Shown one piece after another: positions 927 to 32,710 of a stretch of 34,078 nt of DNA (position 1 is the stretch's first letter; every line of letters starts with the position of its first letter). Position numbers and translations under genes: made by a program. The stretch lies in assembly GCA_905236455.1 (NCBI GenBank), contig CAJOPT010000063.1, positions 1 through 34,078 on the forward strand, given 5' to 3'. This DNA is from an uncultured Prevotella sp. GTDB lineage: Bacteria > Bacteroidota > Bacteroidia > Bacteroidales > Bacteroidaceae. Below the pieces are notes generated by a model that was not told where the DNA came from, did not search any database, and was given only the letters and a program-made list of their open reading frames with translations.

Positions 927-2609
927 ATGAGAAATAATCACCGATATCTGTTACTTATCAGTGCATTTTTCCTGATAATACCAGCATTGGCACAAGAAGC
1001 CCCCGATGACAAGAATATAATTGTCACTGGAAGTATTCAGAGCGATATCCTACTTCCACAAGAAGACAATAAGATTGGAGCAGGAAAAAGCGATGACTGG
1101 GCATTGACCAACACATATGCTGATGTCAGTGTGAGGAGCAAGTATATCGATGCCGGTACGCGTTTCGAATTTGTTGAGCACCCCCTGCCAGGCTATGAGA
1201 ATGATTTCAAAGGCTGGGGTGTACCCTTTTTCTATGTTAAGGGAAAGCTGAAGAATCTTGAGGTAACGGCAGGATCATTCTATGAACAGTTCGGTTCTGG
1301 ATTCATACTACGAGCCTACGAGGAACGTTCACTGGGCATTGACAACCATTTGTTGGGCGGTAAGATAGTCTACCGCCCGTTCAAAGGTGTGCAGCTGAAA
1401 GCCCTCACTGGTGAGCAACGACGTTATTGGGCGCACAACGACTCTTGGATTAGCGGAGGTGATATGGAACTGAATATCGACGAATGGTCGAAAGGATTAC
1501 AGGAAAGCGGCACCCACCTGACGCTGGGAGCCTCCTATATCAATAAATATGAGAAACAGGAAGAGCTGATGACCGATGCCACACATCGTCTTAACTTCCC
1601 TGAATATGTCAATGCCTTCGACATAAGAGCCAACTTGCAAAAGGGAGGATTCAGCGTCTTGGCGGAATATGCACAGAAGACACAGGATCCATCATTCGAC
1701 AATAAGTATATCTACCGCAAAGGGTACGTTGCCATGCTTTCAACCTCATACTCAAAGAAAGGCATGAGCCTCCTCGCACAAGCAAAGCGTTCCGACAACA
1801 TGTCATTCCGTAGTCGCCGGTCGATGTCGGGCACCTCGTCATTCATAAACCATCTGCCGGCATTCACTATGGATCACACTTATGCTTTGGCAGCTCTCTA
1901 TCCATACGCCACTCATCCGCAAGGAGAATGGGCTTATCAGCTCAATGCCAGTTATAACTTCAAGCGTAATACATTGCTTGGCGGCAAATATGGCACACTT
2001 GTAAAACTTAACTACTCTTATGTTCATGCCATTGACCAGAGCACCTATTCTGATTCCCGTCTATGGGGGGAGTCTGATAAAAACTACTCTCCTGCCGGCA
2101 CAAACGGCTATGGCTCCGCATTCTGGAAATGGGGCGATCAGATGTATTACCAAGACCTCAACCTCCAGATAGAGAAACGCATGACTAAGGATTTCAGACT
2201 TAATGTCATGCTGATGAACCAGTTTTACAACAAGACCATCGTTGAGGGACATGGCGGAATAATACATTCCAACATTTATGTGGTCGACGGGAAATATCAG
2301 TTCAGCCGCAAGACTACGTTACGCGGGGAGCTGCAATATCTCACGACACATGACGATGACGGTGACTGGGCTTTCGGACTGTTGGAGCTGTCCTTGGCAC
2401 CCCACTGGATGATTACGATATCCGACATGTACAACTGCGGCAAGACCGACATTCACTACTATCAGGGAAGCGTCACCTTCAACACAGGCGCCCACCGCAT
2501 GCAGGTTGGCTACGGACGCACACGTGCCGGATATAACTGTTCGGGAGGCGTATGTCGCTATGTACCAGCAAGTAAGGGTCTTACATTATCGTATAACTAC
2601 AACTTCTAA
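927..2609 (+). CDS. DUF6029 family outer-membrane protein
   Basis: This is a 560-residue protein with a signal peptide (cleavage after about ALAQ, residue 23). The early segment with V-T-A-G-S-F-Y-E-Q-F-G-S-G and R-S-L-G-I-D-N is what I recognise as DUF6029, a Bacteroidales family without known function. Alternating-polarity strands throughout and a C-terminal aromatic (Y-N-Y-N-F) suggest an outer-membrane beta barrel. The next gene begins 4 nt after the stop, so the two are surely co-transcribed. Residues about 375-396 (Y-S-D-S-R-L-W-G-E-S-D-K) are encoded by a degenerate copy of a palindromic element also found in three other genes of the window. The family call is from recall of its sequence pattern and was not searched. 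Confidence 0.8.
   Translation: MRNNHRYLLLISAFFLIIPALAQEAPDDKNIIVTGSIQSDILLPQEDNKIGAGKSDDWALTNTYADVSVRSKYIDAGTRFEFVEHPLPGYENDFKGWGVPFFYVKGKLKNLEVTAGSFYEQFGSGFILRAYEERSLGIDNHLLGGKIVYRPFKGVQLKALTGEQRRYWAHNDSWISGGDMELNIDEWSKGLQESGTHLTLGASYINKYEKQEELMTDATHRLNFPEYVNAFDIRANLQKGGFSVLAEYAQKTQDPSFDNKYIYRKGYVAMLSTSYSKKGMSLLAQAKRSDNMSFRSRRSMSGTSSFINHLPAFTMDHTYALAALYPYATHPQGEWAYQLNASYNFKRNTLLGGKYGTLVKLNYSYVHAIDQSTYSDSRLWGESDKNYSPAGTNGYGSAFWKWGDQMYYQDLNLQIEKRMTKDFRLNVMLMNQFYNKTIVEGHGGIIHSNIYVVDGKYQFSRKTTLRGELQYLTTHDDDGDWAFGLLELSLAPHWMITISDMYNCGKTDIHYYQGSVTFNTGAHRMQVGYGRTRAGYNCSGGVCRYVPASKGLTLSYNYNF
2050..2114 (+). repeat. Degenerate copy of intragenic two-hairpin element
   Basis: Read on the coding strand, 2047-2084 matches the U32-gene copy (complement of 10714 downward) at about 31 of 38 bases, including an unbroken GGGAGTCTGATAAAA. 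The first hairpin (CTGATTCCCG / GGGGAGTCTG, 7-nt loop) is partly paired. The second keeps only a GCCG / CGGC stem around a 7-nt loop at 2094-2108. The spacer is about 5 nt shorter than in the full copies. Confidence 0.6.
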
Positions 2610-6243: not shown

Positions 6244-8736
6244 TTACCATTTCAGTCTTAGGTCAACTCCCACTTGTATTGGGTTGCCTAATTGACCGAA
6301 TGTAAGAGTTTTGCCTGTAGCCGCGCTTTGTACGGCAAATGTATTGTAATTAGAGTTTGTGAGGTTCCGTCCCCAAAGCGACAAGACACAGTTTAGTGAC
6401 CCGAGCTGGCAGTTCAAATCGGCATGGGCACCTACCGTGGCATAGAGCTTCTGCCAGTAGGTGTTTGCCTCATCCCAATAGGTCTTACCTTGTGCGTTTA
6501 CATTAGCACCGACGGTGAGCGTTTTTAAAGCCTTACCGTTGATGTCAACATTAACGTTAACTGCCGCCCCGATGGTATGCTCCGGCACAAACGGCACGCG
6601 CTTGTCTTTATAGCTTACATACTGCAGTTTTCCATCCACCTTAATGCTGTCATCATAGTTTTTGAATACGGCACGCGTATATCCATAATTCAATGAGTAG
6701 TCGAGGTGATTGTCAAAAGCACTGCCTCTAAGACTTGCCTCCACACCGCAGCTGTAGCTCTTTCCTGCATTTACCATCATACGACCAAAGCCAAAATTTC
6801 CAGCCATGACAGAGAGTTGCTGGTTGCGAACTTGCATATAGAAGCCAGAGAGGTCAAGATGGAGACCATTGCTGAAGAGGTTGAGGTGAGTGCCGAACTC
6901 ATAGTTCCAGCTGGTCTCAGGTTTGAAGGCTATGGTCTCTGCAATGTTGGCATACGCCACGTCATCGTGCTCGAGTGTCATCTCTCCCCTCGCCTTCTGC
7001 GCATTGTCCTGCAACTCAGTCTGAAGGATATCACTGAACATCTGGATATTGTAACCACCGGCACGATAGCCCTTTGCCACCATAGCATAGACATTACTTC
7101 CACTATCATCAAACTGGTAGCTGATGCCTGCCTTTGGCAGCAACTGACTGAAGTCATCATCCTCATGGTGAGCCAGCTCAGACCTCACTGCCGCATCCAC
7201 ATGCACACCCATCACATCCTCGGCAAGCGTGGCAAGGGCGCTCGTCTCGTAGTCTATGCCTACATGACTGTAGTCGTAGCGTAATCCCAATGTCACTGAA
7301 AGGCGTGGAGTAAGCTCGAGCACCGATTCATGAAATATGCCGAGATTAGATTGAGGAGTACGGAAGAGTCCGGGTATAGTGCTCACCGCCATGTCGATAT
7401 TACAACCACCGGCACGTTCTATATTCGCCGCAGCCTGTGCCTCAGCGACAGCTTGCGGCATACCGCCCTGCGCCATTCGTGCCGCCATGCTGTTAAGCAT
7501 ACCATAGTAGGCATAGTCGGTTATGGTTTTCGACAAAAAAGCATTCATCATCGGATCGAAGTATACTGGCGCATTGGTTTTAAGCCACTGAGTAGAAAAG
7601 AAAGCGCCGGCAGTCCAATGCCAGATACCTGTGATACCCTTTACGGCCAGCTCCTCGGTAACACCGTTTTGCAATTGTCTCTGCTCCATATGCATAAAGT
7701 CATCAGGCTGATAGTCGATGTCCATAAGCATATAGTCCTTGAGATACTGCCATGAGGTAACCGAGCAGAGGTCGAAGCCCTTGCCCTTATATCCAATGCT
7801 AAGAGCAGTATTGAAGATGCCACGGCGGTAGTTTCCTGTATGGTTCGTATTAGGATCCTGTGTTGTGAACGAGCCGTCCTGTCCCTCCATTATACCATAG
7901 GGATAGCCATACTGTCTTACCAGCTGTCCGTCAGTGATGAAATCAAATGTCAGACGGTCGGTGGGCTGCCACAGCAGTCTTAGACGTCCGCCACCCTCAT
8001 TGAGTTTGTCAGCTTTCTCACCGTTGAACTGATTCTTGAAAAAACCGTCCTGTCCGTCATAGAAACCAGCCACGGCAAAGGCGAATTTGTCACTTACCTT
8101 ATTATAATGAGCAACCTCAGCCTTGCGCCATAGATGTGTGCCGACAGAGAGATTTACCTCCGTGCCCTGATATGACATGGGATTCTTAGTATACAAACGT
8201 ATCATGCCACCCTCGGTATTCATACCATAGAGCGTTCCCTGTGCACCGCGCAGCACATCAACCCTGTCGATGCCGTAGGTATGGAAAGCAAAGGCACTCT
8301 TACTTAGCAACGGCATTCCGTCGACATAGATTCCCACTGCCGGACTGTTGACACGCGAGCCTATACCTCGTATATAGACAGACGGAGTGTAACGGCTGCC
8401 ATAGTCGGGCATGGTCAGCGACGGAACATATCCAGACAGGGCATGAAGATCCTGCACCTGAAGACTGGTAAGGTCGCTCTGGGAAAACGAGGATGAGCTG
8501 AGCGGCTGGAGGCGCAACTTAAAAGCCTCCTTAGGTTGAGACACAACAACGACCTCGTCTATATCGTACACTTTTGACGAATCGGCAGCATTGGTGTCAA
8601 CTTGTCTGTCGACTATGGCGACAGACTGTTTCGACGATGTTTTATCAGACTCCCCCTGCAAGGGTAAGTTTGCCTGAGCTGAAACAGCAAATAATCCTTG
8701 GATGGCTAATGCCACGAAAAGAAATTGTTTCTTCAT
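6244..8736 (-). CDS. TonB-dependent outer-membrane receptor
   Basis: I place the start at 8736 (830 residues). Reading on upstream to 8859 would pass through the promoter, while 8736 gives a proper signal peptide (MKKQFLFVALAIQG...). The plug domain follows a TonB-box-like D-I-D-E-V-V-V-V near residue 50, with R-G-I-G-S-R and D-G-M-P-L further on and the barrel thereafter, ending in D-L-R-L-K-W. Such proteins import siderophores, vitamins or other ligands using ExbBD-TonB energy. There is no SusD partner nearby, so it looks like a SusC-independent, metal/siderophore-type receptor (inference). Residues 22-45, just after the signal peptide, are encoded by a copy of the two-hairpin element, and residues 726-731 (V-N-V-N-V-D) by a GTTAAC hexamer array. 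Confidence 0.9.
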   Translation of the reverse strand: MKKQFLFVALAIQGLFAVSAQANLPLQGESDKTSSKQSVAIVDRQVDTNAADSSKVYDIDEVVVVSQPKEAFKLRLQPLSSSSFSQSDLTSLQVQDLHALSGYVPSLTMPDYGSRYTPSVYIRGIGSRVNSPAVGIYVDGMPLLSKSAFAFHTYGIDRVDVLRGAQGTLYGMNTEGGMIRLYTKNPMSYQGTEVNLSVGTHLWRKAEVAHYNKVSDKFAFAVAGFYDGQDGFFKNQFNGEKADKLNEGGGRLRLLWQPTDRLTFDFITDGQLVRQYGYPYGIMEGQDGSFTTQDPNTNHTGNYRRGIFNTALSIGYKGKGFDLCSVTSWQYLKDYMLMDIDYQPDDFMHMEQRQLQNGVTEELAVKGITGIWHWTAGAFFSTQWLKTNAPVYFDPMMNAFLSKTITDYAYYGMLNSMAARMAQGGMPQAVAEAQAAANIERAGGCNIDMAVSTIPGLFRTPQSNLGIFHESVLELTPRLSVTLGLRYDYSHVGIDYETSALATLAEDVMGVHVDAAVRSELAHHEDDDFSQLLPKAGISYQFDDSGSNVYAMVAKGYRAGGYNIQMFSDILQTELQDNAQKARGEMTLEHDDVAYANIAETIAFKPETSWNYEFGTHLNLFSNGLHLDLSGFYMQVRNQQLSVMAGNFGFGRMMVNAGKSYSCGVEASLRGSAFDNHLDYSLNYGYTRAVFKNYDDSIKVDGKLQYVSYKDKRVPFVPEHTIGAAVNVNVDINGKALKTLTVGANVNAQGKTYWDEANTYWQKLYATVGAHADLNCQLGSLNCVLSLWGRNLTNSNYNTFAVQSAATGKTLTFGQLGNPIQVGVDLRLKW
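6544..6561. repeat. GTYRAC-like hexamer array, three units (TonB receptor gene)
   Basis: GTCAAC, ATTAAC and GTTAAC follow each other without gaps. On the coding strand they give V-N-V-N-V-D in a barrel strand or loop of the receptor. The same hexamers occur as arrays in several other genes of the window. Confidence 0.6.
8602..8672 (-). repeat. Intragenic two-hairpin element (TonB receptor copy)
   Basis: GTCTGTCG and CGACAGAC form a perfect 8-bp stem with a 7-nt loop (8604-8626). GATGTTTTATCAGACTCCC follows at 8636-8654, a match to the U32 copy. The other hairpin (CAGACT 8646-8651 with AGTTTG 8667-8672) is weakened but has the same 27-nt span. It encodes residues 22-45 of the receptor, containing G-E-S-D-K-T, between the signal peptide and the TonB box. 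Confidence 0.65.
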
Positions 8737-8872: not shown

Positions 8873-9907
8873 TTACACATTCATGGCACCGCATACAGGG
8901 CAAGTACCCTTCTGATTAAGTTTAGTGCCACATTTCCCACAGGTATACAAGGCAGGTGTGTTCTTAAAATATAGACGGATGGCAAACCACACATACGCGA
9001 TAAAGAGCAGATAACCCACATAATACAACGTGCTGACACTGAATATAATATAGTTGAACGCACATACGGCAGCCAATCCACTTAAATACAGGAAGGCGTC
9101 ACTAAACCCCAAATAACGGCGCGTATCATCGATGACAGCGATACCGACTATCAGCATAGACCATACAGACGCAAGGAACACACCAAGCAGAAAAGGCTGC
9201 GAGAAAGGATTCAGCGAAGGATGGAAATAGAACTCCCTCCACATCTCAGGCATAAACATCTGTATGCTGGCATAAAGTGTGGCTGAGAACGCTACATTGA
9301 CAGCCAACAATGTGGGATAGAACGACGCAATGTCGTTGAAGTGTACAATCTTGGCATTGTGCCTCAGCTGCTTCCTCAACAAGTATCCCACCGCTATGAG
9401 ACTGATTATTACAAGAAAAACCAATGTATGTGAATCGGAGAACGTGGATATAAACTGTGATATGGGATCATCTGGATCTACCCCCTTCAGCAGTTCACTC
9501 TCGTGAATCCATCCAAACTCATAACCCTCGGTAGCCACTTGCACCCAAACAGAGTCGGTGAGGTTCTCCGTATGTGGCATTACCCGTATGTCGGCGACCA
9601 CCATACGAGTATTCTTGGGAACCATGAAGGAGTCGGTCTGCATACCACTGACTATCTCCTCAGGCTGTTGGTTGAGCAATGCTATGGAGTCAGCTCTTAC
9701 TATAAAATTGAAATTCCGCGAATAATGATGTTCATGTGCGAAGCTGATTGAGTCCAGCTCTTCTTGTGTCATTGTGTCGGCAACGACAAGCGTATCTTTA
9801 AGTTGGAACCGCGATGGAGTACGATCATGATAACAACCGCATAACACATTAGCAGTCAAGGCTATTATGAGAAATGGCACAAGTAATGATTTATTCCGCA
9901 TAGACAT
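8873..9907 (-). CDS. Membrane protein with SH3-like extracytoplasmic region and C-terminal zinc ribbon
   Basis: This is a 344-residue protein. The N-terminus has a signal-like hydrophobic stretch ending L-C-G-C (Cys 25), a possible lipobox. Residues about 30-150 are soluble and include a segment (M-V-V-A-D-I-R-V to F-G-W-I-H-E-S-E-L-L) reminiscent of bacterial SH3 domains. Four to five membrane helices follow from about residue 158. The tail carries two CxxC knuckles (C-G-K-C-G and C-P-V-C-G), a zinc-ribbon typical of regulatory or scaffold membrane proteins. The start at 9907 overlaps the end of the U32 gene by 17 nt; a second in-frame ATG at 9901 is equally likely. Co-transcription with U32 is near certain. 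Function unknown. Confidence 0.75.
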   Translation of the reverse strand: MSMRNKSLLVPFLIIALTANVLCGCYHDRTPSRFQLKDTLVVADTMTQEELDSISFAHEHHYSRNFNFIVRADSIALLNQQPEEIVSGMQTDSFMVPKNTRMVVADIRVMPHTENLTDSVWVQVATEGYEFGWIHESELLKGVDPDDPISQFISTFSDSHTLVFLVIISLIAVGYLLRKQLRHNAKIVHFNDIASFYPTLLAVNVAFSATLYASIQMFMPEMWREFYFHPSLNPFSQPFLLGVFLASVWSMLIVGIAVIDDTRRYLGFSDAFLYLSGLAAVCAFNYIIFSVSTLYYVGYLLFIAYVWFAIRLYFKNTPALYTCGKCGTKLNQKGTCPVCGAMNV

Positions 9908-11867
9908 TCATTTGACAATCTTTACAATTGAACTCAAGACGAAACCGCCTGCGATCAGACAGCTCCAGGAAAAGCGGCTCTCTCCATGTGGGTTTGCGCC
10001 CTCCATGCCGCACACAAGCTCCCAATGTATAGCGCAGACAATGGCGGCACTGCATAAGCAACGCCTCACGAGGATGCGCAAGCTCAAATGCCGTCCCACA
10101 TGACTGTAAGCCCTTGGACTCATAGAACGCTTTCGCCTGCCGGTTTGCTATATTAAAGAGGTATGGATAGTGATCGTATTTTTTTACTGGAATGGGAACG
10201 TTAACGTCAACCTTAGGTTCCGTTGTCATTGTCCCCGTTGATGTTGACTGGCTTATTTTCTCCTCCAATACACTAACCGCATACCTTCTCGCCTCAGTAA
10301 GCTTGCTTGCAGGAACAAACCATTTAAAGTCTGAATTCCCGTCAAAGCCCTCACAGATGAAAGGAGTATTGCCAAGTTTTGAAAGTATACCTGTAATTTT
10401 ATCTTTCTGGGAGGTGTGAGCTACTTGAATATCCGAAGGCACGGCGATGGAAACACCTATGTCATTTGCATTGACATCCAAGAGTATATCACTCCCCCCA
10501 CGTCCGTTATCAATATTGACATGAAACCGTATCGTTACAGGTATCTTTCTCTCGGCAGTCCCACGTCCTGCAAGTATTTTCTCAAAAGCCACGTCCTGAT
10601 TACGATATAAAGCCATTCCAGGAAGAAGGGATGCCGGAATCTTCGAGCCTGCCGTCCGAGGCGGCAGACTCATAGACATTGTTTTATCAGACTCCCGCCG
10701 CAGACGGGAGTCTGGATACAAGCGATTACCCTCCACTCTGTTTACGCGAAAGCCCTCCAGCTCACGCTTAGCATTCAGGAAGCAGAGTCCGTCACCATTG
10801 GCAAACGAGGCTGTGCCTGCCACACTGAACGAGTTACTGCTAATCTCCTTTACCTTTCCCACATACTCACCCATAGCCTTTGGGGTGTCAGGTGAGATGA
10901 CATCAGCCTGTCTATTCAGCAACCGTCCGTCGCTGTCACGACCACAATGCAGGAAATAGTCGGTAAAGCCGCGGTTGAATGTCTTCCGTAAATCTGGTTT
11001 GAAGAAATATTGTACACGTCCTAAGGATGAACGCATATAATCATTAGGGCGTTTCCTCACTAATGAATCCAGTCTCTGGCTGTATGCCGAGACTACATTC
11101 TTGACATAGCTGACATCCTTCAACCGTCCCTCTATCTTAAATGACACAGCACCAGCATCAGCGATTTTCTCAAGATCGTCTATCCTGCAGAGGTCTTTTA
11201 AAGACAACAGATAACGCTGGTGAATCAGCTCATTACCCGTAGAATCCACCAGATTATATTTCATACGGCACATCTGAGCACATTCACCACGGTTGGCACT
11301 TCGTCCGAAACAATGTTGTGAGGCATAGCACAGACCACTATAGCTCACGCACAATGCGCCATGCACGAATACCTCTAACTCTATGCCAGGTACTTGCTCG
11401 TGAATCTCACGTATCTCCTCCAATGAAAGCTCTCGAGCGAGCACTACCCTACTAAAGCCTAATGACTGCAACCACCTCACCTTCTCCACCGTACGGTTAT
11501 CTGTCTGTGTGGATGCATGGAAGAAACTGGGGTTTAGCATCTTGGGACTGGCATACGAGAGCTGTTGCAGTATACCCATGTCTTGAATAAGGAATGCATC
11601 AGTACCCACATCCTTAAGTTGACTTATCAGCTGTTGCATCTTTTCCAGCTCACTGTCATAGACAATGGTATTGACAGTCACATATACCTTTGCTCCAAAG
11701 AGATGCGCATAACGGCAAAGCTCAGCAATATCCTCCACAGAGTTACTGGCTGCAGCCCTGGCACCGAAGCGAGTCGCTCCAATGTATACGGCATCCGCGC
11801 CATGGTCGATAGCTGCTTTGCCGCATTCCAGATTCTTGGCTGGTGCCAATAACTCTAATTTCCTCAT
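9891..11867 (-). CDS. U32 family protein, RlhA-like
   Basis: This is a 658-residue protein beginning L-E-L-L-A-P-A-K-N-L-E-C-G and carrying the U32 signature E-V-F-V-H-G-A-L-C-x4-S-G-L-C (residues 165-180). Further cysteines at 186, 196, 200 and 227 could complete an Fe-S site like that known for UbiU/UbiV. The length is close to E. coli RlhA, the U32 protein needed for 23S rRNA C2501 hydroxylation, so an RNA-modification role is more likely than proteolysis (inference). Two foreign-looking insertions are visible: residues about 385-408 come from the two-hairpin element, and residues about 540-557 hold an S-T-S-T to V-D-V-N-V-P stretch encoded by GTYRAC-like hexamers. It starts 24 nt after metA. 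Confidence 0.85.
   Translation of the reverse strand: MRKLELLAPAKNLECGKAAIDHGADAVYIGATRFGARAAASNSVEDIAELCRYAHLFGAKVYVTVNTIVYDSELEKMQQLISQLKDVGTDAFLIQDMGILQQLSYASPKMLNPSFFHASTQTDNRTVEKVRWLQSLGFSRVVLARELSLEEIREIHEQVPGIELEVFVHGALCVSYSGLCYASQHCFGRSANRGECAQMCRMKYNLVDSTGNELIHQRYLLSLKDLCRIDDLEKIADAGAVSFKIEGRLKDVSYVKNVVSAYSQRLDSLVRKRPNDYMRSSLGRVQYFFKPDLRKTFNRGFTDYFLHCGRDSDGRLLNRQADVISPDTPKAMGEYVGKVKEISSNSFSVAGTASFANGDGLCFLNAKRELEGFRVNRVEGNRLYPDSRLRRESDKTMSMSLPPRTAGSKIPASLLPGMALYRNQDVAFEKILAGRGTAERKIPVTIRFHVNIDNGRGGSDILLDVNANDIGVSIAVPSDIQVAHTSQKDKITGILSKLGNTPFICEGFDGNSDFKWFVPASKLTEARRYAVSVLEEKISQSTSTGTMTTEPKVDVNVPIPVKKYDHYPYLFNIANRQAKAFYESKGLQSCGTAFELAHPREALLMQCRHCLRYTLGACVRHGGRKPTWREPLFLELSDRRRFRLEFNCKDCQMNVYAE
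10194..10249. repeat. GTYRAC-like hexamers in the U32 gene
   Basis: GGGAAC, GTTAAC and GTCAAC run together at 10194-10211 and encode V-D-V-N-V-P. A second small array (GTTGAT, GTTGAC at 10238-10249) is read in a different frame as S-T-S-T. The two arrays flank a T-M-T-T-E-P-K linker. Confidence 0.6.
10645..10714 (-). repeat. Intragenic two-hairpin palindromic element (U32 copy, best preserved)
   Basis: The 70-bp element has hairpin 1 at 10645-10671 (arms GAGCCTGCCG / CGGCAGACTC with one mismatch, 7-nt loop), a 16-nt spacer (10672-10687), and hairpin 2 at 10688-10714 (arms CAGACTCCCG / CGGGAGTCTG, perfect, loop CCGCAGA). On the coding strand it gives D-S-R-L-R-R-E-S-D-K-T-M-S near residue 390 of the U32 protein, in a loop between ordinary family sequence. 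Confidence 0.8.
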
Positions 11868-16880: not shown

Positions 16881-16884
16881 GCTG

Positions 16885-16916
16885 CAAAGGTACGCATAAG
16901 CGAGCACAAAACAAAA
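16885..16916 (-). promoter_or_regulatory. ABC-F promoter, leaderless
   Basis: Minus-strand TTTTG (complement of 16912-16916), 19 nt, then TACCTTTG (complement of 16885-16892). Only CAGC separates the box from ATG 16880, so the start of transcription should fall at or next to the ATG. Confidence 0.75.
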
Positions 16917-17001
16917 GAAAACCGCTTTTTTCTTTTTTTTGTCGAGTGGAAGTACCTTCTCCAAAGGTACTATTAAGCGAGCACAAAACAAAAGAAAAAT
17001 G
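16885..17001 (-). repeat. Duplicated promoter cassette upstream of ABC-F
   Basis: A unit of 77 bp is repeated: TACCTTTG boxes lie at 16885-16892 and 16962-16969 (minus strand), each preceded by CTTTTGTTTTGTGCTCGC. The upstream copy carries a palindrome GTACCTT / AAGGTAC (16952-16970) overlapping its box, plus an A-rich tract. In the copy next to the gene the palindrome's second arm is replaced by the gene start. The same cassette precedes the phenylacetate-CoA ligase gene. Confidence 0.85.
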
Positions 17002-17010
17002 GTTTTTATT

Positions 17011-17058
17011 TTGAAAGTGGAAAGTTGTCCTCGTTATCTTTCAACTTTCCACTTTCAA
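17011..17058 (-). terminator. Long perfect hairpin after the 79-residue gene
   Basis: TTGAAAGTGGAAAGTTG (17011-17027) and its exact complement (17042-17058) form a 17-bp stem with a 14-nt loop. It lies 12 nt beyond the stop of the 79-residue gene. The T-rich run on the minus strand follows only after about 10 nt, so it is an imperfect terminator; it may instead be a member of the TTGAAAR repeat family. Confidence 0.6.
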
Positions 17059-23538: not shown

Positions 23539-24690
23539 TTATTCCAAACGACTATTAAATTTCTTCAGCGAGACAAGCAGTAGAAGCAATGTCATCAGCG
23601 ACAGCATTATGACCTCAGGCAATACCTCATTGATACCCACACCCATTATCATTAGCTTACGCATGGCTTGAATATAATATCTCGGCGGAATGACGAAAGC
23701 GATCCACTGTAAGGGCTGTGGCATGGACTCCACAGGGAAGAGCATACCGGAGAGCATCACTGTAGGCAACAACAACACCATGGCTGACACGAGCAGAGCA
23801 ACAAACTGTGTCTTGGCGATGTTGGAAATCAACAATCCCAACGACAAGGCAAGAAGAATATATATCAGCGATACTACTATCACCCAGACAAGAGAGCCCG
23901 CCATAGGAATACCCAATACAGTGAACGACATGATGAGGATGAGCAATAATACCAAGAATGCCTGCATCAGATAGGGAACGGCCTTGGCTATGATAATAAC
24001 CAAAGGTTGTACAGGTGACACCAACAGTACCTCCATGGTTCCTTTTTCCTTCTCTCGGACGATAGACACTGAAGTCATCATAGCACAGATGAGCAACAGC
24101 AACATACCCATAATGCCTGGTACAAAATTGTAGGCAGACTTCATCTGGGGATTATACAGCATCTTTACATTTACGGGTGAGTGTGCGAGAGTGCCGCCGT
24201 CTTGTGGCATGGAAATAATGTTTTGAGCATAGCTCAACCACTGTTGCGCCATATTTGGGTCGGCGGCATCCACCATCAGTTGCAGATTAGGTGACACTGA
24301 CGCACCATTATGTTTTATTGATGTATTGTCTGGACTATTTATAACTGCGATGTCTGCACGCTGACTACGTATAAACATCTCTGCCTCCCTCGGAGTAGGC
24401 ACCGTGGCAACAACAGAGAAGTATTCCGAACCTGTTGTCTGCGGCAACAGGCTCTTAGACAATGTTTTATATGCCTCCCGCCGCAGATGGGAGGCATCGA
24501 GGCGGTCAATAACATGTCTGTCCATGTTTGTCGTCACCACCACGACCCGTACGTTACGTATGTCATTGGTAATGGCAAAGCCGAAAATCAGCATTAGTAA
24601 TACAGGCATAACAAACAAGATAAGCATCGTTCGCTTATCACGCAAGATGTGGCGGCCTTCTTTAATTACTAATGAAATAAATTGTTTCAT
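23539..24690 (-). CDS. ABC-2 type transporter permease (YbhS-like) carrying an in-frame palindromic insertion
   Basis: This 383-residue permease has an N-terminal helix (T-M-L-I-L-F-V-M-P-V-L-L-M-L-I-F-G), an extracytoplasmic domain, and five helices from F-V-P-G-I-M-G-M-L-L onward. The cytoplasmic loop has E-K-E-K-G-T-M-E-V-L-L-V-S-P. It shares architecture with its downstream neighbour. Where the neighbour reads R-I-E-A-S-K-Y-F, this protein reads R-L-D-A-S, then 21 extra residues (H-L-R-R-E-A-Y ... T-T-G-S), then E-Y-F. The extra residues (about 65-88) are encoded by a two-hairpin element. It begins 46 nt after the ATPase gene, a gap with four imperfect 8-bp units (24701-24732). Confidence 0.92.
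   Translation of the reverse strand: MKQFISLVIKEGRHILRDKRTMLILFVMPVLLMLIFGFAITNDIRNVRVVVVTTNMDRHVIDRLDASHLRREAYKTLSKSLLPQTTGSEYFSVVATVPTPREAEMFIRSQRADIAVINSPDNTSIKHNGASVSPNLQLMVDAADPNMAQQWLSYAQNIISMPQDGGTLAHSPVNVKMLYNPQMKSAYNFVPGIMGMLLLLICAMMTSVSIVREKEKGTMEVLLVSPVQPLVIIIAKAVPYLMQAFLVLLLILIMSFTVLGIPMAGSLVWVIVVSLIYILLALSLGLLISNIAKTQFVALLVSAMVLLLPTVMLSGMLFPVESMPQPLQWIAFVIPPRYYIQAMRKLMIMGVGINEVLPEVIMLSLMTLLLLLVSLKKFNSRLE
24428..24497 (-). repeat. Intragenic two-hairpin palindromic element (permease copy)
   Basis: It has the same 70-bp layout as the U32 copy. Hairpin 1 is at 24428-24454 (core CCTGTTG / CAACAGG, 7-nt loop, mismatch at the same fourth position of the arms), then a 16-nt spacer, then hairpin 2 at 24471-24497 (ATGCCTCCCG / TGGGAGGCAT, loop CCGCAGA identical to U32). 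Arm bases differ from the U32 copy in a compensating way while loops and spacer stay conserved. Confidence 0.8.
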
Positions 24691-24736
24691 TTCTTTTCTT
24701 TATTACGATATAACGTTATTACGTTCTAACGACATT

Positions 24737-26200
24737 TTAGTCAGACGACCTTGTTGCCTGACGAGCCAAATAAGTAAACACATGATCGATGTCGGGTTGA
24801 TTATACTGACGTTTCAGCTCTTCTGGCGTTCCCATGGCACTAATCTTACCATCGACCATGATACTGATGCGGTTGCAATACTCTGCCTCATCCATATAGT
24901 GAGTGGTGACAAACACGGTAATACCCTGCCTTGCCGCTTCATATATGAGTTCCCAGAACTGTCGGCGCGTGGCAGGATCGACACCACCCGTCGGTTCATC
25001 AAGAAACACGACACCTGGGTCATGGAATATACTAACCGAGAATGCCAGTTTCTGCTTCCACCCCAACGGCAGACTTTTCACCAAGTCATTGCGATGACTG
25101 GTGAAGTTAAGCCGCGTCAACAGCTCATCGGTCTTACGGCTGATATCGTCATCACTCATACCGTATATGCCGGCAAACAGACGGATATTCTCAGCAACGG
25201 TCAAATCCTCATACAAAGAAAATCGCTGACTCATATAACCGATATGCTTTTTCAGCTCCTCATGTTGGGTTCTAATGTCGTAACCAGATACTTTCCCTGT
25301 ACCACTTGTTGGCTGATTCAACCCTGTGAGCATGTGCATGGCTGTGGTTTTTCCAGCTCCGTTTGCACCGAGGAATCCGAATATCTCGCCTTTCCTTACC
25401 TTAAAGGATATATCATCAACAGCATGAAACGTTCCAAAAGCTTTAACAAGATGACTGACCTCGATGGCATAGTCTTCAGATCTAACGTTAACGTCAACGT
25501 CAACATTAACAGGTGGAGGGTTAAACACCGAAGCAAATTGAGTCAATACTGCATCTGGAGTATCAATAGCCTGAACACGCCCCTCGGAAAGATAAGCCAC
25601 TCGCTCACAATGTCTTATCTCGTCAAGATATGGTGTCGCAGCCACAATCGTGATGTTACGCTCCTTGAGCATCAAGAGCAGTTCCCACAATTCTTTTCTC
25701 GACACCGGATCAACACCTGTTGTTGGCTCGTCAAGAAACAGAACGCTGGGCTGATGAATCAAAGCACAAGAAAGAGCTAACTTTTGTTTCATTCCGCCAG
25801 ATAATGCTCCCGCCTTTCGATTACGGAATGGCTCAATCTGCGAGTAGATTGCTTTTATGGAATCGTAACCTTCATCCACAGTCGTATTGAAAAGTGTAGC
25901 AAAGAACTTGAGATTTTCCTCAACTGTCAAGTCCTGATATAGTGAGAACTTACCCGGCATATACCCCACTCTCCGCCTGATGTCTCTCATCTCTGTCACT
26001 GTATCAAATCCGTCGACACAAACACTACCTGAGTCTGGCAAGAGAAGCGTTGCCATCAGCCTGAAAAGTGTAGTCTTACCAGCTCCATCAGGACCTATCA
26101 GTCCGAATACCTCTCCTCTACCGACTGAGAATGAGACGCCATCGAGTGCCTTCACTTTTCCAAAGGACTTACTGACATTGTTTACCTCAAGAAAATCCAT
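24737..26200 (-). CDS. Double ABC-type ATPase of the efflux system (YbhF-like)
   Basis: This 487-residue cytoplasmic protein holds two complete ABC domains. Domain 1 has Walker A G-P-D-G-A-G-K-T-T (36-44), signature L-S-G-G-M-K-Q-K and Walker B V-L-F-L-D-E-P-T-T-G-V-D-P. Domain 2 has G-A-N-G-A-G-K-T-T, a variant signature S-L-P-L-G-W-K-Q-K (usual in the second half of this family), and V-V-F-L-D-E-P-T-G-G-V-D-P with a switch His in V-T-T-H-Y-M-D-E. The linker (about 228-242) includes P-P-P-V-N-V-D-V-D-V-N-V and is encoded by a hexamer array. The E. coli counterpart is YbhF. It powers the two permeases downstream and starts 9 nt after the adaptor gene. Confidence 0.93.
   Translation of the reverse strand: MDFLEVNNVSKSFGKVKALDGVSFSVGRGEVFGLIGPDGAGKTTLFRLMATLLLPDSGSVCVDGFDTVTEMRDIRRRVGYMPGKFSLYQDLTVEENLKFFATLFNTTVDEGYDSIKAIYSQIEPFRNRKAGALSGGMKQKLALSCALIHQPSVLFLDEPTTGVDPVSRKELWELLLMLKERNITIVAATPYLDEIRHCERVAYLSEGRVQAIDTPDAVLTQFASVFNPPPVNVDVDVNVRSEDYAIEVSHLVKAFGTFHAVDDISFKVRKGEIFGFLGANGAGKTTAMHMLTGLNQPTSGTGKVSGYDIRTQHEELKKHIGYMSQRFSLYEDLTVAENIRLFAGIYGMSDDDISRKTDELLTRLNFTSHRNDLVKSLPLGWKQKLAFSVSIFHDPGVVFLDEPTGGVDPATRRQFWELIYEAARQGITVFVTTHYMDEAEYCNRISIMVDGKISAMGTPEELKRQYNQPDIDHVFTYLARQATRSSD
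25481..25510. repeat. GTYRAC-like hexamer array, five units (ATPase linker)
   Basis: TCTAAC, GTTAAC, GTCAAC, GTCAAC and ATTAAC run without a gap, the longest array in the window. It codes for V-N-V-D-V-D-V-N-V in the linker between the two ABC domains. Confidence 0.75.
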
Positions 26201-31029: not shown

Positions 31030-31061
31030 CAAAGTTAGATATTTTCAATGAAATTACAAAA
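31030..31061 (-). promoter_or_regulatory. Promoter of infC-rpmI-rplT
   Basis: Minus-strand TTTTG (complement of 31057-31061), 19 nt, then TAACTTTG (complement of 31030-31037), 37 nt upstream of the infC ATG. Confidence 0.75.
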
Positions 31062-31081
31062 TAAAACAGTATTATTTTTTA

Positions 31082-31260
31082 TTTATCCTCGCTTTTTCGT
31101 ACCTTTAAAGAAGGTACTACCGCTCGGCATAAAAAAGAAAAAAGCGTTTTCTTTTGGTTTTGTGCTCGCTTATGCGTACCTTTGAAGAAGGTACTACCGC
31201 TCGACAAAAAAAGAAAAAAGCGTTTTCTTTTGGTTTTGTGCTCGCTTATGCGTACCTTTG
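31082..31260 (+). repeat. Tandem promoter cassette upstream of phenylacetate-CoA ligase
   Basis: A 76-77-bp unit occurs two full times plus the start of a third: CGTACC lies at 31098, 31175 and 31251. Each unit runs from the -7 box through a palindrome (GTACCTT / AAGGTAC at 31099-31117 and 31176-31194), an A-rich tract, GCGTTTTCTTTTGG and TGTGCTCGCTTATG to the next box. The first box reads TACCTTTA and is probably weak. It matches the cassette before the ABC-F gene on the other strand. Confidence 0.88.
31228..31260 (+). promoter_or_regulatory. Promoter of phenylacetate-CoA ligase, leaderless
   Basis: TTTTG (31228-31232), 20 nt, TACCTTTG (31253-31260), then CAGCC and ATG 31266. Transcription should begin at or beside the ATG. 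Confidence 0.75.
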
Positions 31261-31265
31261 CAGCC

Positions 31266-32602: not shown

Positions 32603-32634
32603 GTGGCAATCTCACAAAGGTTGCCACTTTTTTT
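32603..32634 (+). terminator. Terminator of phenylacetate-CoA ligase
   Basis: GTGGCAA (32603-32609) and TTGCCAC (32621-32627) pair around an 11-nt loop and are followed by seven T residues (32628-32634), 20 nt after the stop. Confidence 0.88.
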
Positions 32635-32636
32635 AC

Positions 32637-32693
32637 ATAGATAAAGAAATGGGAGAAATGCCTACAAAAGCATTCTCCCATTTCTTTATCTAT
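32637..32693. terminator. Long hairpin between convergent genes
   Basis: Arms of about 25 and 24 nt (32637-32661 and 32670-32693) pair with a single bulged base and an 8-nt loop. It sits 17 nt after the MFS gene's stop on the minus strand, just beyond the ligase terminator. There is no separate T-run on the minus strand, but the 3' arm itself is T-rich. Likely the MFS gene's terminator or an mRNA 3'-end stabiliser. Confidence 0.7.
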
Positions 32694-32710
32694 CTAATAG
32701 GATACCTCGA

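Follow-up and report, generated by a model that had tools for sequence, protein, structure and literature searches.

A likely mobile 63-bp palindromic element inserted in a permease and many other genes of an uncultured Prevotella species, with hairpin arms that probably match adjoining host DNA through template switching

Rickettsia and a few further genomes provide the best-known cases of mobile palindromes in protein genes. The Rickettsia palindromic elements (RPEs) are described as palindromic units of ~150 bp that lie in frame in unrelated genes and encode a conserved peptide per copy (PMC10969869, PMC6649704). Intragenic REP dimers or groups, formed by GTAG and CGTC REPs in, for example, O. 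terrae and R. conorii, are hairpin pairs within ORFs, including those of UvrD/REP helicases, in which they encode 20 to 30 residues; in the same account these REPs are mostly intergenic and carry a tag at one end, and the Bacteroidetes are among the phyla with CGTC repeats (PMC3733652). REPINs are described as two inverted hairpins with a conserved spacer (PMC6006769), and a further system comprises coding palindromes that are repeated in tandem a varying number of times and encode 25-residue amphipathic domains in ORFs without assigned function (PMC2996958). Palindromes can also be reshaped by template-switch (quasipalindrome) correction, which is expected to yield compensating changes of several bases at once, longer stems and inverted loops (PMC8794818, PMC8604942). 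Compensating changes in RNA are commonly thought to go via G-U, and template switching has been proposed for instantaneous double changes (PMC8794818).

In the current study, we analysed a stretch of 34,078 nucleotides (the window) from an uncultured Prevotella sp., in which an ABC permease carries a palindromic insert. This insert is one of at least 124 matches to a 63-bp element that is likely mobile and is present in many genes, and the arms of which were probably perfected by DNA template switching that would also have copied host flanks into the element. Each copy of this likely mobile unit adds 21 amino acids.

The permease insert and further copies in the window

The permease insert and its parts are the following.

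23539..24690, minus strand: ABC-2 type permease of 383 aa that carries the insert (PF12698, 177.1 bits)
24430..24492, minus strand: 63-bp (21-codon) element in the permease, encoding SHLRREAYKTLSKSLLPQTTG, with host ..RLDA before it and SEYF.. after it
24428..24497, plus strand: complete palindrome, the element plus paired host bases (covariance model R1, 84.7 bits; fold z -4.4)
24431..24451, plus strand: hairpin A, CCTGTTG / loop TCTGCGG / CAACAGG
24452..24470, plus strand: spacer with core TTAGACAATGTTTTAT, the best-conserved portion of the family
24471..24497, plus strand: hairpin B, ATGCCTCCC / GGGAGGCAT

The initial annotation had described an in-frame insertion of 21 residues in this permease only, and the comparison with homologs agrees with it. 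The 21 residues are absent from the permease paralog, from 28/28 aligned orthologs of the genus (29 loci with a match, from 104 genomes, less the partial locus L123) and from 119/119 further homologs within the top 120 listed out of 8000. Since the orthologs checked lack the segment, its reading as an insertion stands. Across 200 genomes of the genus, the permease gene has its best match at 76% DNA identity. The net length of the permease relative to its homologs is +18 and not +21 residues, which suggests that the lineage probably lost 3 residues nearby as well. A structure prediction of the permease (mean pLDDT 53, and 29 to 33 in the insert region) was uninformative.

The two hairpins and the conserved spacer between them, which had also been proposed for 24428-24497, are present in the sequence, and folded as single-stranded DNA this segment gave z = -4.4 against 200 shuffles, none of which (0/200) was as stable. 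The insert itself can be refined to 63 nt. Its ends at 24430 and 24492 are the most likely placement according to the family unit, the length of which is set by the AsnB and UvrD genes discussed below. From position 24493 onward we infer host codons (Asp-Ala), complemented by the inner arm of hairpin B, and the outermost paired bases of the palindrome are thus most likely host sequence. An early reading of GATGCCTCC as wholly host was narrowed to GATGCC. A 458-aa plus-strand ORF over the insert (24404-25780) was judged spurious, being antisense to the permease and to the ORF at 24737-26200. Separately, homologs of the permease and of AsnB in other genomes (P0083, P0096, P0123) have other in-frame extras, e.g. 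LTPNPSPKGEG and TPPLAPPLNGRG, which look like translated other repeats, with one example of each seen; the foreign extra stretch of the AsnB homolog sits near the second AsnB site of the 63-bp element.

Other copies were detected elsewhere in the window.

10647..10709, minus strand: second full copy, in frame in a U32 peptidase, SRLRRESDKTMSMSLPPRTAG (model R1, 92 bits; exact ends predicted)
9891..11867, minus strand: U32 family peptidase, host of the second copy (PF01136, 240.9 bits)
8603..8672, minus strand: degenerate copy in a TonB-dependent receptor (PF00593; model R1, 46.8 bits)
2050..2108, minus strand: very weak, uncertain and possibly decayed copy in a DUF6029 gene (model R1, 22.5 bits, E 0.0033)

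The U32 copy is 79% identical to the permease copy over 67 nt and the differences fall in compensating pairs, as had been noticed in the initial annotation. The U32 insert is absent from 29/29 aligned orthologs, with a net length difference of 22 residues. The TonB receptor copy uses the same peptide frame (GESDKTSSK) and lies near the N terminus, after what appears by eye to be a signal peptide.

Two other repeats of the window are distinct from this element. A separate family of ~76 bp units, tandem and mutually inverted (.. CTCGCTTATGCGTACCTTTG ..), occupies 16882-17012 and 31054-31263 and is perhaps promoter-like; a similar-looking tandem repeat lies at 1340-1500 of L031, the locus of a RAYT-like gene. 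At 32633-32697, an inverted repeat of 25 nt (96% complementary, with 15 nt separating the arms) sits between two convergent ORFs and is perhaps a terminator.

Family size, unit and insertion sites

A covariance-model search for more copies in the genome, as proposed in the initial annotation, was carried out with a model built from 28 complete-unit copies that were picked among 37 in the first loci; their alignment contains 22 predicted pairs, with double-sided changes in 13/22. The search returned 140 matches (E up to 0.01), which fall into 124 distinct places; these form 97 clusters and are spread over 36 contigs of the 2.57-Mb genome. As 150 of 1507 candidates were scored, 124 places is to be taken as a minimum, with uncertainty about the weakest matches. 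The spacer pattern, with one mismatch allowed, matched 71 times in the same genome versus 2 times for the reversed pattern, which together with the 140 model matches indicates that the copies are not due to chance.

Outside this genome, the model had matches in 0 of 99 other genomes of the genus and 0 of 300 other genomes of the family, with few candidates scored in each (50 per genome for the 100 genus genomes and 16 for the 301 family genomes, under stricter filters), so that diverged families could be missed. A short pattern that matched 71 times in the own genome matched 0 to 3 times in each of 39 relatives, approximately the level of the reversed control. The exact spacer pattern gave 4 matches in 84,980 species genomes, all in Pelagibacteraceae and rejected as chance, and none in viral contigs; the own genome was possibly not included in either set. 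What emerges is a burst of considerable size and recent appearance, in one Prevotella-like species.

The family unit consists of hairpin A, a 20-nt spacer and hairpin B, with A and B mutually inverted. On the plus strand of the window, it reads as A (commonest loops TCTGYGG), the spacer core TTAGACAATGTTTTATCA and B (commonest loops CCRCRGA); since the loops of A and B are reverse complements, the unit consists of a single hairpin type present twice in inverted orientation. Based on ortholog-defined inserts and on base conservation, the 63 nt appear to run from GTCTGCCG in A through CGGGA in B, and the GTC that is usually next would belong to the host. By base, GTC is conserved at 94, 77 and 92% on the A side and at 81, 70 and 79% on the B side. 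Within arrays, 18/27 steps are of exactly 63 nt.

The insertion sites were judged against orthologs, with results that support this unit length. AsnB carries three tandem units after KEQTP (site 1) and one unit after FLED (site 2), and neither insert is present in any of 24 ortholog rows with the N-terminal motif (29 loci compared; two rows represent one locus). At site 1 the insert measures exactly 189 nt (3 x 63) relative to the 22/24 rows of equal length there, and at site 2 exactly 63 nt relative to the 12/24 rows that share FLED. The UvrD insert is absent in 29/29 orthologs and amounts to 63 nt (21 residues) compared with the closest one. In an activase gene, site 1 has a net gain of 21 residues (63 nt) over 3/3 orthologs, site 2 a gain of 11 residues, i.e., a shortened copy (3 orthologs), and site 3 a gain of 22 residues over the closer of the two orthologs that cover it. 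The net insert length is thus not always 21 residues, as also seen in U32 (22) and the permease (18).

Next to hairpin B, the host has a GAC codon in AsnB (sites 1 and 2), UvrD and the activase gene (site 3), and a GCC codon in the permease. GTC on the model strand occupies this place in 36 of the 53 outer-edge copies, and we conclude that insertion usually adjoins GAC in gene orientation. With regard to a target-site duplication as in MITEs, the repeats at the two borders, judged by eye, have no constant length (5 nt and 1 nt at AsnB sites 1 and 2, respectively, and 8 nt at activase site 3).

Origin of the hairpin arms

Stem positions 2 to 8 were surveyed in 86 A and 89 B stems, out of 109 spacer sites, that passed the stem score. 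The cells comprised 956 with the consensus pair, 219 with another Watson-Crick pair, 13 with G-T and 37 mismatched; the score treats G-T as a mismatch (23 A and 20 B sites dropped), hence the survey leans toward Watson-Crick pairs, and the cells are not independent as the copies are related. The hand-chosen 28-copy alignment contains 46 double-sided versus 10 one-sided cells. Exactly inverted loops are few, namely CCACAGA and CCGCAGA once each in A and TCCGTGG once in B.

Above-chance pairing extends to stem position 10 and fades at 11, and according to the inferred border, the host bases would be those at 6 to 10 in stem B and at 9 to 10 in stem A. On side B, 237/265 cells pair at positions 6 to 10, as opposed to a mean of 136 and a maximum of 162 in 2000 shuffles. 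On side A, where positions 6 to 8 belong to the element, 226/260 cells pair at positions 6 to 10 (shuffles: mean 164, maximum 184); restricted to its host positions, 78% pair at 9 (43% expected) and 54% at 10 (30% expected), a level reached in 0/300 shuffles of the 59 edge copies.

Individual sites bear on the direction of copying. In UvrD, the inner arm GTCAAG (GTCTGA in the family) complements host CTTGAC, the Leu-Asp codons of which are kept in 20/29 orthologs (by eye). Activase site 3 has host GAAGAC opposite inner GTCTTC, with orthologs showing Glu-Asp in one case and Asp-Asp in the other, and in the permease host GATGCC lies opposite inner GGCATA. These three arms are best read as host sequence copied into the element. 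AsnB site 2 has the same host GAAGAC as activase site 3 but an arm that was not rewritten (GTCTGA), which indicates that rewriting is a chance event after insertion and not an obligatory step. Overall, the sequence of the hairpin arms has probably been adapted to the host DNA next to them. All three hallmarks of template switching that were looked for were found, i.e., double-sided changes with few G-T intermediates, loop inversion in a few copies and stem extension. We propose that the hairpins would fold during replication and the nascent strand would switch template to the opposite arm, an event that would equalise the arms, invert a few loops and lengthen the stem into host sequence. These hairpins make a direct test possible of whether compensating changes arise by template switching rather than by selection.

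An unlikely variant of this scheme is that the host flank serves as the template for the inner arm at insertion, so that each copy copies a guide from its target and carries a foot complementary to its own site. If true, the element would be a self-reprogramming mobile hairpin, unlike the fixed-guide IS200/IS605 elements. In IS200/IS605 elements, the guide is fixed and targets are chosen by guide match. A mechanism of this latter kind, in which the host matched the inner arm before insertion and no rewriting took place, appears improbable here as well. It would account for the commonest B inner arm (22/53 copies), which complements GTCTG, together with the GTC at 36/53 flanks, and for AsnB sites 1 and 2, which fit without rewriting; moreover, 5/27 of the non-commonest B arms read AGACT, which is the common arm with its register shifted. 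On the other hand, 11/27 non-commonest B sites have an inner 4-mer that is unique among the catalogued sites while 21/27 pair fully with their own flank, the respective values on side A are 5/25 and 18/25, and donors bearing the rare guides were not seen among the catalogued copies.

The initial annotation had left the choice between selection on structure and a mobile element copied as a unit. The mobile unit is supported by the 124 places and the in-frame copies, and the compensating arm changes are explained better by template switching than by selection on structure. We regard it as very unlikely that the hairpins are kept by selection as a nucleic acid structure (RNA or DNA) that serves the host, be it as a terminator or attenuator, in mRNA stability or as a protein-binding site: the stems covary strongly, as such a function would predict, yet the ratio of 13 G-T to 219 Watson-Crick cells is unlike that of selected RNA helices, the copies lie inside unrelated genes, the other genomes searched hold no match, and no known RNA family (Rfam) matches within the window.

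Host genes, mobilisation and relation to known systems

Of the 43 distinct candidate host ORFs outside the window, 40 were scanned, and 31/40 had a Pfam match at E up to 0.001, 28/40 over the cut-off. Together with three ORFs of the window, these 31 make up 34 ORFs, in which 52 catalogued copies lie. ORFs with an over-cut-off match account for 47 of the 52, and hence for at least 47/84 copies catalogued in the stretches taken. Copies were found in the genes of a UvrD helicase, an asparagine synthetase and a topoisomerase IV/gyrase A-type protein, and in those of several transport proteins. For 13/74 clusters, no spanning ORF of 100 aa was found.

One reading frame dominates, with 39/52 copies or 23/32 gene-by-frame cases (two genes split over contigs were entered twice), and encodes DSR(P/L)(W/R)RESDKT(L/M)S.SL.PQT; 4/6 consensus frames are open. 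In the genes of the window, 36% of GAC sites are in-frame Asp codons, which translates to 45% expected among open frames; the observed 23/32 exceeds this expectation from the GAC preference (p = 0.002). Target choice therefore explains part of the frame bias, and the rest is probably selection against harmful frames. A spread driven by selection for the 21 residues as a functional protein module, with the hairpin as a by-product, we consider highly improbable, since the dominance of this frame, which such a module would explain, is accompanied by hosts as unrelated as a helicase, a permease, an asparagine synthetase and TonB receptors, by other frames in 13/52 in-gene copies, by the clusters without a spanning ORF, and by stem covariation at the DNA level that reaches host bases. 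The insertions offer a natural experiment on how many proteins tolerate 21 additional residues.

Array length varies among close versions of the same genes. The AsnB database protein P0121 has one unit at site 1, versus three here, with 592/595 aligned residues identical, and an exporter has 1+1+1 units in the own genome, and 1+1+2 and 2+4+1 in close versions (3, 4 and 7 units), of which the 2+4+1 version is 97% identical and could come from a sister species. The variation seen within the species concerned array length only, with no case of a whole insertion present in one version and absent from another. The genome is a fragmented assembly of 140 contigs, several ends of which carry the repeat, and the PGA_cap and citrate lyase ligase genes are each split at element copies (contigs C44/C74 and C138/C35), which suggests that arrays broke the assembly. 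A 1896-aa database protein (P0244) has an NRPS-like N-terminal part joined to the exporter at an element copy, by recombination between copies or, more likely, as an assembly chimera. An origin of the repeats themselves in misassembly, binning or contamination, to which the contig ends and the fused protein might point, is nevertheless hardly credible, given that the same inserts occur in database proteins that differ from those of the own genome (P0001, P0121, P0241, P0242) and that the matches spread over 36 contigs, many in frame within conserved genes.

With regard to mobilisation, a single-strand (HUH/Y1-type) nuclease may recognise the hairpins and insert copies 3' of host GAC (gene orientation). 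The terminal GAC of the element, in the same orientation, would then be the target for the next copy, and a unit ending in GAC would give head-to-tail arrays with a period of 63 nt. In-gene copies would survive since 63 nt, being divisible by three, preserve the reading frame of the host, and since a hydrophilic linker is encoded in the favoured frame.

As a candidate gene, the genome has one intact RAYT-like ORF of 340 aa (L031 140-1162, contig C69) and a fragment of another; the intact ORF scores 20.8 bits in Pfam (cut-off 23) and 44.2 for NCBIfam REP_Tyr_transpos (cut-off 80). No IS200-like gene over the Pfam cut-off was found in the genome. Neither RAYT-like locus (L031, L182) has an element copy (best model match E 0.57), with L031 covering 2.1 kb and its left side partly visible, as the contig begins 139 nt upstream of the ORF. 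RAYT-like homologs occur in 60/100 genus genomes (own included), and 0/99 others match the element. At five RAYT-like loci of relatives (L171, L172, L183, L184 and L185, not L186 and L187), there was no model match. The RAYT as a proven mobiliser was thus rejected, its homologs being widespread in genomes without a model match and no copy having been found next to its own gene. Many genomes of the genus contain several copies of RAYT-like relatives, and a protein-level comparison showed variable alanine-rich loops in some of these.

A description of such an element in Prevotella or Bacteroidetes was not found among the best matches in the open-licence literature. The likeness to RPEs suggested by the initial annotation has gained from the genome-wide data, which show a unit copied and inserted in frame, with a similar peptide, in unrelated protein genes. 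Likened to RPEs by their description, the unit is shorter (63 bp), consists of two inverted hairpins and is often tandem. It shares with REPINs the inverted hairpin pair (loops TCTGYGG / CCRCRGA), the conserved spacer and a RAYT-like gene in the genome; unlike REPINs, it lacks GTAG, has no copy by the RAYT-like gene and has a target that looks like GAC. In the element consensus, GTAG is absent from the hairpin foot and there is no unpaired CGTC at one end, as CGTC spans the stem/loop border only. In contrast to the mostly intergenic, end-tagged GTAG and CGTC REPs (PMC3733652), the 63-bp element carries no end tag and has at least 47/84 copies in genes. The tandem arrays of variable number recall the coding repeats of PMC2996958, but the inserts of the Prevotella-like genome lie in conserved enzymes. 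The signs of template switching occur here in a dispersed element and reach into host sequence. The element differs from intragenic REPs and RPEs in its high in-gene share, its occurrence in one genome among those searched, the lack of GTAG/CGTC tags and its host-matched arms. Taken together, we read it as REPIN-like in form and RPE-like in habit, which does not imply membership of the RPE family.
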